A DNA stretch of 64,000 bases from Myxococcales bacterium (lineage in GTDB: Bacteria > Myxococcota_A > Polyangia > Haliangiales > Haliangiaceae). A program made the position numbers and the translations under genes. Positions 3,114-54,551 of the stretch are shown piece by piece; positions within the stretch are counted from its first letter, which is position 1; every line of letters begins with the position of its first letter. The stretch covers positions 1 through 64,000 of the forward strand of contig JAEUJY010000069.1 of the NCBI GenBank assembly GCA_016794525.1. The letters are read 5' to 3'. The notes beneath the pieces are model-generated. The model searched no databases and was not told where the DNA came from. It saw only the letters and a list, made by a program, of their open reading frames with translations.

Positions 3114-3345
3114 ACGTCCAGGACGGTGTGTCGCCACGTGAGCGTGCGCCACACCTCCACGGCGCCACCGGGCGCGGGCCGCCGCGCTGGACAGCCCGCC
3201 CGTCCGCGCGCGCCGTGGTGCCTCACGCCCGGGGCGCTCCCACAGGACGATCGCGGCCCCGCGCGGCGATCGCAGACAGATTCGCGCCACCGGATTCCCC
3301 TCGGCGCTTGCCGTCGGGCTGCGCCGCCCGCAGGCGTACGCGGCG

Positions 3346-3867
3346 GTGCGGGCCGCGATGATCGCGCTGGTCGGCCGCGCCGACTTCCGCGTCGTCCACC
3401 TGTCGATCCAGCGCCACCACATCCACCTGCTCTGCGAGGCCGACGATCGCCGCGCGCTGGCCAACGGCGTCCGCGCGCTGTGCGTCTCCGCCGCGAAGCG
3501 CCTGAACCGCGCGGTCACCATCGCCGGTGGCGCGCCGCGCCGCGGCCGCGTCTTCACCGACCGCTACCACGCGACGACGCTCGAGAAGCCGCGCCAGGCG
3601 CGCCATGCGCTGGCCTACGTGCTCAACAACTGGCGCCGCCACCGCGAGGATCACGCCGGCCTCGGCCAGCGCCGCGCCCCGCTAGACCGCTACGCCAGCG
3701 GCGTGGCATTCGCCGGCTGGGCCGAGCGCGACGGCGTGCCGTTCGCGTGGCCCAAGGGCTTCGAGCCGATGCCGACGGCGGCGGCGCAGACCTGGCTCAT
3801 GCAGGGCGGCTGGAAGCGCGGCGGCCCGCCGCCCAGCCTGTGGGAGCGCCCGGGTCCGCTGGCGTGA
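3346..3867 (+). pseudogene. Y1 (REP-associated) transposase, 5' end damaged
   Basis: Encodes the core of a small HUH/Y1 transposase of the RayT type. Visible features are the metal-binding HHIHL motif (about 3415-3429), RRGRVFTDRYHA and the helix LAYVLNNWRRHRED, whose Tyr is the likely catalytic residue. The C-terminal WLMQGGWKRGG block is also typical. Similarity-like sequence (RRPQAYAAVRAAM) begins upstream at about 3319, and the frame is open back to 3142, but no ATG, GTG or TTG occurs in it before the GTG at 3346. The 5' end and start codon therefore appear lost, and the copy is probably inactive. Confidence 0.7.
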
Positions 3868-34639: not shown

Positions 34640-35131
34640 TCAGTGGCTCGCGCCGGCGGCCAGCACGAACACGAACAGGATCAGGCCCAGCGAGATGATC
34701 ATCAGGATGCTGGCGATCATCCCGCAGATGCGGCCGGCCGTGACGTTGCCGCGGGTCGACGGATCGACCTCGCCGCGCTCGATCCGACGCAGCTCCTCGT
34801 TGCCCATCGACCAGGCGATCGGCCCGAGGATGCTGCACACCACCAGCGACAGGATGCCGAACACCAGGATGGTGCCGCCGCGGGCTGGCACGGGGAACGC
34901 GCCCCCGTACCCGCCCGGGTAACCGCCGTAGCCGTACGCCGGCGGCGGCGGCGGGTAGCCGTAGCCGCCCTGCCCGCGCAGCCGCGCCAGCTCGGCGTTG
35001 GCCTGCTGGAGCTGCTGGGTCAGGTTGGCGATCGTCGCGGCGTCGGCCTGCTGACCCGACTGCGCGTCGCGGAGCTGCTGCTCCAGCGCGCTGGCCCGCG
35101 CGACCGCGGCGTCCCACTCGTTGCGGTACAT
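34640..35131 (-). CDS. DUF4190-like membrane protein with coiled coil
   Basis: Predicted 163-aa protein. The N-terminal ~55 residues form a coiled coil (ASALEQQLRDAQSGQQADAA, QLQQANAELARLR). A Gly/Tyr/Pro-rich stretch follows, then two hydrophobic segments (about 90-110 and 135-160) flanking NEELRRIERGEVDPSTRG, a DUF4190-type domain. It is one of three neighbouring genes sharing the C-terminal domain; this copy has a coiled coil in place of a zinc ribbon. It is 7 bp from the next copy. Confidence 0.72.
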   Translation of the reverse strand: MYRNEWDAAVARASALEQQLRDAQSGQQADAATIANLTQQLQQANAELARLRGQGGYGYPPPPPAYGYGGYPGGYGGAFPVPARGGTILVFGILSLVVCSILGPIAWSMGNEELRRIERGEVDPSTRGNVTAGRICGMIASILMIISLGLILFVFVLAAGASH

Positions 35132-35138
35132 CGTCGCC

Positions 35139-35540
35139 CTACTTGCTCGACATGATCATGATGCCGAGCAGCATGTTCACGATCGAGATGATGATGCCGG
35201 CGAGCGCGAGGCCGCCACCGGTCTTCATGCCGTTGGAGTTCTTGACCTCGTTGTAGCCGATGATCGAGAAGATCAGGCCGAGCAGCGCGCAGAGGAACGA
35301 CAGCACGAAGCCGGCGACCGCCATGCCCGAGGTGCTGGGCGCCATCTGCATCGGCACGCCGTAGGGCGGCGGGTAGTAGCCCGGGGGCGGGCCCGGCGGG
35401 TACCCCGGCGCCGCGCCCATCGGCGGCGCACCGTACGGCGCCGCACCCGGCGGCGGCGCTGCGGTCGGCAACTGCGCCCCGCAGCTCGAGCACACCACAC
35501 TGCCATCGAGATTGATCGTCGCACACCGGGGACAGTTCAT
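35139..35540 (-). CDS. Zinc-ribbon DUF4190 membrane protein (copy 2)
   Basis: Predicted 133-aa protein: a zinc ribbon (CPRCATINLDGSVVCSSCG), a Pro/Gly/Tyr/Ala linker, and a DUF4190 domain with GMAVAGFVLSFLCALLGLIFSIIGYNEVKNS and a final hydrophobic helix. The ATG at 35540 begins the ribbon. The domain is highly similar in pattern to the gene at 35699-36109, so they are recent paralogues. Function unknown; a membrane-anchored small Zn-ribbon protein is seen. Confidence 0.82.
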   Translation of the reverse strand: MNCPRCATINLDGSVVCSSCGAQLPTAAPPPGAAPYGAPPMGAAPGYPPGPPPGYYPPPYGVPMQMAPSTSGMAVAGFVLSFLCALLGLIFSIIGYNEVKNSNGMKTGGGLALAGIIISIVNMLLGIMIMSSK

Positions 35541-35666
35541 CGCGATTCCTCCGGCGACCAGTGTGCATGGGCGTCCGGGTCGCTGCAACGGCGATCATGA
35601 AAAGATCGAACCGCCGGACCGAGCGGCGCGACGTCGCGATCCCCAGCCGCCGCCCGCCGCCGCGCG

Positions 35667-35693
35667 GGGGAAGGTTTGTCGGCAACCTTCCCC
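35667..35693. terminator. Hairpin after DUF4190 copy 1
   Basis: GGGGAAGGTT (35667-35676) and AACCTTCCCC (35684-35693) form a perfect 10-bp stem around a 7-nt loop, starting 5 bp after the stop of the minus-strand gene at 35699-36109. No clear T run follows, so it may be an intrinsic terminator of weak type or a transcript-stabilising hairpin. The loop contains CGGC, similar to other GGTTGCC/GGCAACC hairpins in the window. Confidence 0.5.
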
Positions 35694-35698
35694 GTGGG

Positions 35699-36109
35699 TC
35701 AGTAGCTGTGGCCGTTGCTGGCGAACGCGATGATCGCGACGATGTAGATCACCTCGATGATCATGCGGATGATGCTGATCACGATGCCGGCGATCGCGAG
35801 GCCGCCGCCGGTCACCGCGCCGCCGCCGCGCTTGACCTCGTTGTGGCCCATGATCGAGAAGATCAGGCCGAGCAGGCCGCAGAACACCAGCGACAGCACG
35901 AAGCCGGCGACCGCCATGCCCGACGTCCGGGTCGGCGGCGGGTACCCGTACGGCGGGTAGTAGCCGGGCGGCGGGTAACCGGCGGGGGGATAGCCAGCGG
36001 GGGGATAGCCCGGCGGCGGATAGCTGGCGGCGAGCGGCAGCGGAGCCCCGCAGCGCGCGCACAGCGACGAGCCCGCGACGTTCACCATCGCGCAACGAGG
36101 GCAGGTCAT
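35699..36109 (-). CDS. Zinc-ribbon DUF4190 membrane protein (copy 1)
   Basis: Predicted 136-aa protein with CPRCAMVNVAGSSLCARCG, a Pro/Gly/Tyr-repeat linker (GYPPAGYPPAGYPPPGY) and a DUF4190 domain (GMAVAGFVLSLVFCGLLGLIFSIMGHNEVKRG) ending in a second hydrophobic helix. The ATG at 36109 begins the zinc ribbon. It is separated from the two paralogues by a hairpin and sits divergent to the gene at 36301 with the foldback element between. Confidence 0.82.
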   Translation of the reverse strand: MTCPRCAMVNVAGSSLCARCGAPLPLAASYPPPGYPPAGYPPAGYPPPGYYPPYGYPPPTRTSGMAVAGFVLSLVFCGLLGLIFSIMGHNEVKRGGGAVTGGGLAIAGIVISIIRMIIEVIYIVAIIAFASNGHSY

Positions 36110-36159: not shown

Positions 36160-36292
36160 GCTAGCACTACTGCGTCAGGCCATCGCCGGCTGCGACCGTC
36201 GCGGACGTGGGGGCCTCGCGGCGTACGTGCGCCGCGATCCCCCGCACGCCGCTTGGTCTCGCTCGACGCTGACCTGACGCAGTAGTGCTAGC
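36160..36292. mobile_element. 133-bp MITE-like foldback element
   Basis: Perfect 20-bp terminal inverted repeats flank a 93-bp core: GCTAGCACTACTGCGTCAGG at 36160-36179 and its reverse complement at 36273-36292. The core is itself largely self-complementary (about 36205-36250, GTGGGGGCC...CCCCCGCAC with GCGGCG/CGCCGC inside), so the whole element can fold back as one long imperfect hairpin. The ends carry CTAG on both sides, which fits a 4-bp target duplication of YTAR type. There is no ORF, so it is probably non-autonomous. It sits between divergent genes, 8 bp before a start codon. Confidence 0.75.
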
Positions 36293-36300
36293 TTGCAGCT

Positions 36301-37542
36301 GTGCGAGCGACCTCGACCCTCCTCATCCTCCTGTGCGCGTGCGGCGGCGGCAAATCGAACCCGGACGGCGCCAGCGACGGCACGCCCGGCACCGACGGCA
36401 CCGTCGTCGACGCGCCCCCGGCGCCGTTCTGCCAGCCCCGGACGGGCACCGCGCTGCGCCTGCAGCAAGTGGCGACGGCGCTGCGCCAGCCGGTCGGGCT
36501 GGCCGCGCCGACCGGCGACAGCCGCCTGTTCATCCTCGAGCAACCCGGGCGCATCCGGGTGGTGAAGGACGGCAACCTGCTGGCGACGCCGTTCCTCGAC
36601 GTCTCGAACCAGGTCAACGCCACCGACGAGGAGCAGGGCCTGCTCGGCCTGGCGTTCCACCCGCGCTTCGCCGACAACGGCAAGTTCTACATCTACTACA
36701 CCGCCAACGGCAGCAACGTCGTCGTCGCCGAGTACACCGCGAGCGCCGGCGCCGACACCGCGAACCCCACCGAGCGGCGGCTGATCAGCGAGCCCCACCC
36801 CTACGGCAACCACAACGGCGGCACGCTGGCGTTCGGGCCCGACGGGTTCCTGTACATCTCGATCGGCGACGGCGGCGGCTCGGACAACTTCCTGCGCAAC
36901 GGCCAGAACCCCAACTCGAAGCTGTCGAAGATCCTGCGCATCGACGTCGACCAGGGCTCGCCCTACGCGATCCCGCCGACCAACCCGTGGGCCGGCGGCG
37001 GCGGCGTCCCCGAGATGTACGCGTGGGGCCTGCGCAACCCGTGGCGGTTCGCCATCGACGGCGCCAGCGGCGATCTCTACATCGGCGACGTCGGCCAGGG
37101 CTGGTTCGAGGAGGTCGACCTGGTGCCGGCGGGCCAGGCCGGCAAGAACTTCGGCTGGGCGGTGTTCGAGGGCCCCGACTGCTTCACCGCCGATCCCGAC
37201 GGCAACGCCGGGTGCAACAACCCGTCGCCGTACGCGACGCCGCTGCTGGCGATCGATCGGCGCAACAACGGCGAGAACTCGGTGATCGCCGGCGCGGTGT
37301 ACCGCGGCAACTGCATGCCGGCCTACGCCGGCACGTTCTTCTTCGGCGACTACGGCTCGGGCCGGGTCAAGACGCTCAAGGTGGTCGGCGGCGCCGCCAC
37401 CGAGGTCACCGATCGCACCAGCGACGCCGATCCCGACGGCCTCCTGTACCAGCAGCTGGCCAGCTTCGGCGTCGACGGGTTCGGCGAGCTGTACGTCATG
37501 GCCCGCACCGCCGGCCGGGTGTACCGGCTCGAGATCGAGTGA
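36301..37542 (+). CDS. PQQ-type sorbosone/glucose dehydrogenase-like lipoprotein
   Basis: Predicted 413-aa lipoprotein: the leader STLLILLCAC ends at the lipobox before GGG. The rest is the six-bladed propeller of the GSDH/sorbosone dehydrogenase family, with GLLGLAFHPRFADNGKFYIYY, NGGTLAFGPDGFLYISIGDGG, SKILRIDVD and WGLRNPWRFAIDG. It should oxidise an aldose or similar sugar in the periplasm with PQQ and calcium. Starting GTG at 36301, 8 bp after the foldback element, so that element overlaps its promoter region. Confidence 0.88.
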   Translation: MRATSTLLILLCACGGGKSNPDGASDGTPGTDGTVVDAPPAPFCQPRTGTALRLQQVATALRQPVGLAAPTGDSRLFILEQPGRIRVVKDGNLLATPFLDVSNQVNATDEEQGLLGLAFHPRFADNGKFYIYYTANGSNVVVAEYTASAGADTANPTERRLISEPHPYGNHNGGTLAFGPDGFLYISIGDGGGSDNFLRNGQNPNSKLSKILRIDVDQGSPYAIPPTNPWAGGGGVPEMYAWGLRNPWRFAIDGASGDLYIGDVGQGWFEEVDLVPAGQAGKNFGWAVFEGPDCFTADPDGNAGCNNPSPYATPLLAIDRRNNGENSVIAGAVYRGNCMPAYAGTFFFGDYGSGRVKTLKVVGGAATEVTDRTSDADPDGLLYQQLASFGVDGFGELYVMARTAGRVYRLEIE

Positions 37543-54337: not shown

Positions 54338-54403
54338 GAAACGCCGGAGGCGGTTCGAAGTCAACCTGCGCCGTGCCCGTGCCCGTGCCCGTGCCCGTGC
54401 CCG
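54326..54403 (-). repeat. Composite repeat (copy B), hairpin plus hexamers
   Basis: Inverted second copy of the element at 13932-14004. Outer arms GCAGGTTG (54326-54333) and CAACCTGC (54362-54369) enclose GAAACGCC-GGA-GGCGGTTC with one mismatch. Then follow GTGCCC hexamers (54373-54402, five copies). The hairpin begins within the last codons of the AGPS-like gene, so the TGA stop is inside its left arm. Confidence 0.72.
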
Positions 54404-54471
54404 ATCTCAAACTCGATTCCGCGATCGTTGTTGGAGCGGAAGACGCGGAGAAGAACCGCGGAGAAGAACCG

Positions 54472-54505
54472 GGCACGGGCACGGGCACGGGCACGGGCAC
54501 GGGAG
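54472..54505 (+). repeat. Second GGGCAC hexamer block, opposite orientation
   Basis: Five GGGCAC hexamers near 54473-54503 face the GTGCCC block at 54373-54402 across about 70 bp. The two blocks are inverted repeats, so transcripts could form a stem of about 30 bp. This region between convergent genes could serve as a two-way terminator. Confidence 0.7.
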
Positions 54506-54551
54506 CAGCCCCGCCGAGAAGACGTCGCTTCGCGCCGCTTCTCGCGGGCTG

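Follow-up and report, generated by a model that had tools for sequence, protein, structure and literature searches.

A 133-bp foldback sequence separates two divergent genes in the 64,000-nucleotide stretch of Myxococcales DNA analysed here (hereafter, the window). Its symmetry could reflect a mobile element or a conserved regulatory structure and, if it is mobile, the question follows of which transposase moves it.

Structure of the element and its position between two genes

The original prediction described a foldback with perfect 20-bp ends, CTAG at both ends and a self-complementary core, and this description was confirmed by an inverted-repeat listing and by folding. The ends, GCTAGCACTACTGCGTCAGG and CCTGACGCAGTAGTGCTAGC, were perfectly complementary over 20 bp, with 82% complementarity over 38 bp, and the core was self-complementary. 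Folding as single-stranded DNA gave -62.9 kcal/mol, compared with -42.1 +/- 3.3 kcal/mol for dinucleotide shuffles (z = -6.3; 0 of 200 shuffles as good), and a perfect 20-bp pair within 150 bp was present in none of 60 Markov-1 random windows. The element is short and non-coding and carries terminal inverted repeats, as a MITE does, and the CTAG ends are better read as TA flanking a 125-bp element that ends in G...C (Table 1). No other perfect inverted repeats of at least 20 bp were listed in the window, except for arms inside a tandem repeat near 54.4 kb, where a CCGTGC array (54369-54516) faces its own inverse and forms long perfect inverted repeats.

Table 1. Features of the element and its flanking genes (window coordinates)
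Feature	Position	Strand	Remark
Zinc-ribbon / DUF4190-like small protein gene	35699..36109	-	ATG start 36109
Foldback element as first reported (perfect 20-bp ends and core)	36160..36292	.	133 bp
Left arm / terminal inverted repeat	36160..36179	+	
Left TA, read as target duplication (C-TA-G)	36162..36163	.	from end table of copies; alternatively part of the ends
Element proper, G...C	36164..36288	.	125 bp; inferred from end table
Conserved asymmetric core	36182..36270	+	match to covariance model R1 (model includes the window copy)
Right arm / terminal inverted repeat	36273..36292	-	
Right TA, read as target duplication	36289..36290	.	from end table of copies
Glucose/sorbosone-dehydrogenase-like gene (413 aa, PF07995)	36301..37542	+	GTG start 36301

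The placement of the element in a divergent promoter, 8 bp ahead of a GTG start, was likewise correct, and such a position makes an effect on the two neighbouring genes plausible. The right arm, read outward, contains TGCTAG, which may serve as a -10 box for the gene at 36301; TGCTAG upstream of gene starts in the window had too few cases for an enrichment count to bear on this role. The DUF4190-like assignment of the zinc-ribbon gene scored just under the Pfam cut-off. Tandem paralogues of this gene occupy 34679-36109 on the minus strand, with matches of 66% and 40% identity beside the first.

Copies with a conserved core and matched arms

Next, we used a covariance model of the core, with the window copy among its sequences, to search 30 genomes of Kofleriaceae, and obtained 66 matches in 12 of them. 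The most copies were found in the congeners G006 (22), G003 (13) and G004 (9), and the own genome (G000; 9.8-Mb assembly in 177 contigs) contained three, including the window copy. The census scored the best candidates of each genome only, and fragments are therefore under-counted. A DNA query in the own assembly returned four clear fragments of the window end type, comprising a right half (L002, 88%), a left half (L003, 96%) and two left ends (L004 and L005). Copies in relatives have the core with a longer loop than the window copy, and the whole element is mostly about 176 bp. The foldback in the window is one of the copies of a small mobile element, non-coding and dispersed in Kofleriaceae genomes. 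A second subfamily in G006 (L229, L231, L237-L239 and L241) is embedded in a longer repeat whose flanks, GTTTTGGGAGGGGG ... GCATTCGCG, are conserved, perhaps as a larger composite unit.

A single conserved asymmetric core was common to subfamilies with unrelated ends, namely TAGCACTACTGCG (the window type, which L080 carries imperfectly), TAGARCACCGAACGG, TAGAGCGCATCTC, TAGGGGCTGTCCC, TAGCCCGGATAATTC and TAGCTCGCACTATTC. Among eight copies from G003, the between-copy difference was 21% at arm sites, compared with 6.7% in the core and 7.3% in the loop, and within copies only 2 of 144 arm pairs (1.4%) were mismatched. When right arms were shuffled among these copies, equally few mismatches arose in 6 of 100,000 trials; the eight copies had been picked because their lengths were equal and their arms aligned, and common descent inflates the shuffle test, so that the result is a strong description of arm matching and not a probability. 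Weaker-scoring copies in G004 and G006 carried unmatched arm mutations, indicating that pairing was not maintained following insertion in these two genomes. Most simply, the arms would be matched when the element transposes, and the transposase would tolerate or ignore part of the arm sequence.

Target sites and sites lacking the element

An end table of the copies showed C-TA-G on both sides of most intact copies. Two others kept the TA with different neighbours (L089, T-TA-G/C-TA-G; L094, G-TA-G/C-TA-A), and L081 and L085 had TG on both sides. The pattern is consistent with a 2-bp duplication and a preference for CTAG, although the TA could alternatively belong to the ends. Frames longer than 100 codons on each side ended in the terminal TAG in seven copies (L236, L242, L246, L248, L264, L194 and L090); the element lies between convergent genes there and supplies or preserves both stop codons, unlike the window copy, which lies at promoters.

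The original prediction proposed looking for relatives' sites that lack the element, and such sites were found. In the nearest relative, G006 (L067, a Kofleriaceae MAG), the orthologous gap retains both divergent neighbours and lacks the element. About 75 bp lie there between two TA pairs aligned by eye with the element ends, which is no clean empty site, and the gap appears to have diverged or been replaced. This gap holds an imperfect inverted repeat that would suit a stem-loop-replacing insertion, a point that we do not press, as divergent promoters are symmetric anyway. At two other sites (L194 compared with G005, and L249 compared with G003), the arms and the core were missing together in the relatives, indicating that the arms belong to the element. 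The L248 site contains one CTAG in G006, and the element plus CTAG in G000.

These sites bear on the possibility that the core had inserted into pre-existing hairpins, the arms being leftover target stems. IS1272 and TnSha1 cut within target hairpin stems (PMC4923244, PMC5678879), and arms that vary between copies and match within a copy are what such insertion would leave. However, the arms are absent at the two element-free sites, no orthologous site holding arms without the core was seen, copies of one genome have arm sequences in common, and the arm of the commonest subfamily is an IS end (see below). We rejected this explanation as highly improbable.

The original prediction also held that a single copy at the same position in all relatives would favour a conserved RNA or regulatory structure. 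The copies are instead dispersed, and the orthologous promoter of the nearest relative lacks the element, so the MITE reading stands. The compensated arms in G003 and the location of copies at stop codons or promoters would agree with a conserved RNA, bidirectional promoter or terminator that is not mobile. Against this are the absence from the orthologous site, near-identical dispersed copies at non-orthologous sites, the unmatched arm mutations in older G004 and G006 copies, and the lack of any credible match to a curated RNA family in Rfam. Such a structure in place of a mobile element is highly unlikely; a regulatory by-effect of a mobile element is conceivable.

Search for the mobilizing transposase

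A family-wide search with the commonest arm, GARCACCGAACGGTTTGA, found pairs of matches spaced as in the element, hairpins of very short length (L360, L362 and L363), unrelated cargos (L372; L364-L366), and, in G000, G002 and G021, matches lying 100-180 bp from a contig end. The cargo-bearing hits in G002 (L372) and G020 (L364-L366) are small elements with the same IS1182-type ends and unrelated contents, and in some of them tandem repeats of a short unit, (GGCGTA)n or (GAC)n, make up most of the sequence. The same search also found, in G026, an element of 1.74 kb that encodes a broken transposase and has the family's commonest end, TAGARCACCGAACGGTTTGA, at its boundaries; the ends of the commonest subfamily are those of an IS1182-family transposon. 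Searched in pieces, the frames of this transposase matched DUF772, DDE_Tnp_1 and DDE_Tnp_1_6, and the NCBIfam IS1182 matches were partial (best 3.7e-22, below the curated whole-protein cut-off). Neither end of the G026 IS showed the family core. In G000, four contigs (L354, L367, L368 and L370) run from TAGARCACCGAACGGTTTGA into identical inner sequence, as expected of a collapsed multicopy IS. These contig ends were read as transposase termini from position and by-eye resemblance; three short contig-end pieces gave no hit in the family scan, and one of the three, the longer N-terminal piece, which had been lengthened in part by guesswork from the G026 frame, was not used as evidence.

Comparable ends occur on Nostoc plasmids: the start of an IS1182-like element reads CTAGAACACCGA, IS1182-type elements have the ends CTAGAACACCGATTCAG and CTAGAGAGGCAGTCC (the latter that of an annotated Nostoc IS1182), and CTAGAACACCGATTCAGTAATC is the end of an element with a related transposase frame. 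CTAG followed by variable sequence therefore occurs at such ends elsewhere. For the window copy, a search of its own assembly, whose contigs break off at repeats, yielded no autonomous element with the ends TAGCACTACTGCGTCAGG. That this copy, whose end type is different, owes its movement to the enzyme class of the commonest subfamily is therefore an inference.

Members of the IS630/Tc1-mariner family insert at TA, and CTAG is also a target of theirs, so that the TA or CTAG at both element ends, together with IS630-type genes in some family genomes, would be compatible with a MITE of this family. We rejected IS630 as the partner, and consider it very unlikely: PF13358 was not found in the copy-richest genomes (G000, G003, G004 and G006), the inverted repeats at IS630 genes (TAGTCCCC... 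or GTACGCCGTCGCAGCGG) are unlike every arm type, no IS630 transposon with matching ends was found, and an IS1182-type element has the commonest arm as its end.

As originally noted, the window contains no transposase with matching ends; the sole transposase-like frame seen there, at about 3.3-3.9 kb, is RAYT-like (Y1) and of a different class. This frame (about 3285-3867, plus strand; PF01797, 28.5 bits in a genome search) is one of 17 in the genome, and the 194-aa fragment, scanned by itself against Pfam, returned nothing at 0.001. RAYT genes are common in these genomes, the element forms long hairpins in intergenic gaps, and its arms covary as if read as a fold, all of which would suit a REPIN-like element mobilized by a RAYT through a single-stranded hairpin. 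Yet 20 RAYT loci had neither core nor arms in their flanks, and in REPINs the ends are conserved whereas the middle varies (PMC3116915), the reverse of the family here. With many RAYT genes and none of those 20 loci flanked by the family's repeats, this partner was rejected, and we give it scant credence. RAYT genes of the own genome (L115 753-1067 and L110 2436-2494) are flanked by short hairpins of their own, TGAAGAACGGCGC / TGAATCGCGGCGC, which are a separate REP family.

Collectively, these observations favour the reading that the element is a non-autonomous MITE of an IS1182-type DDE transposon, to which we assign a probability of about 0.75. Weighing against it are the lack of an autonomous element with the window copy's ends, the missing core at the G026 IS ends, the partial NCBIfam matches, the fragmentary state of the window-type copies in the own genome and the unclean gap of the nearest relative. 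The MITE-like character originally proposed agrees with a multicopy, dispersed element that is absent from the nearest relative's orthologous site and whose commonest end type matches a transposase-bearing element. A transposase acting in trans would recognize C-TA-G and roughly the next 15-20 bp at the two complementary ends and would insert the element at sites resembling CTAG. Such sites often lie where one of two convergent genes, or both, use the TAG as stop codon. The window copy would have been inserted into the promoter gap of two divergent genes, and its right end would now give the flanking gene a -10-like box.

Comparison with known systems

ERIC, Correia and RUP are TA-flanked bacterial MITEs of 100-170 bp that are palindromic and intergenic and include truncated copies. 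By description, the family here resembles them in size, palindromic form, TA flanks, intergenic location and truncated copies; the partner class differs where known. The IS1182-family MITEs of Methanosarcina acetivorans, which have ISMac2 as partner (PMC3852290), were compared by description and not by sequence. Both families are multicopy with long terminal inverted repeats and an IS1182-type partner, the sizes being 160-169 bp compared with mostly about 176 bp here, and the repeats 25-26 bp compared with about 20 bp. One end type per partner is reported in M. acetivorans, whereas here several unrelated end types share a core and the arms covary.

IS1272 and TnSha1 (PMC5678879, PMC4923244) likewise have an IS1182-family transposase and insertions at gene ends and hairpins, but IS1272 replaces target stem-loops without target duplication, whereas the ends here suggest TA duplication at CTAG. 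REPINs and their RAYTs (PMC3116915, PMC3733652) share the long intergenic hairpins, many beside convergent stop codons, but differ in their conserved ends and variable middle, and no RAYT linkage was found for the conserved middle and variable ends described here.

Implications of the covarying arms

IS1182-type MITEs are already known, and what is new is the covarying arms. The transposase might recognize the folded shape of the ends and not their full sequence, the foldback core travelling with any complementary pair of arms; we regard this as doubtful. It is conceivable by analogy, since IS1272, an IS1182-family member, is reported to select hairpin targets by structure (PMC5678879, PMC4923244). 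If it were true, arms could drift provided that both sides change together, and one core could pass between transposases with unrelated end sequences. A conserved core with ends that change in matched pairs would offer natural substrates for asking whether IS1182-type enzymes recognize their own ends by structure. For Kofleriaceae genomes, a class of long hairpins at stop codons and promoters is explained as insertions and not as regulatory RNAs.
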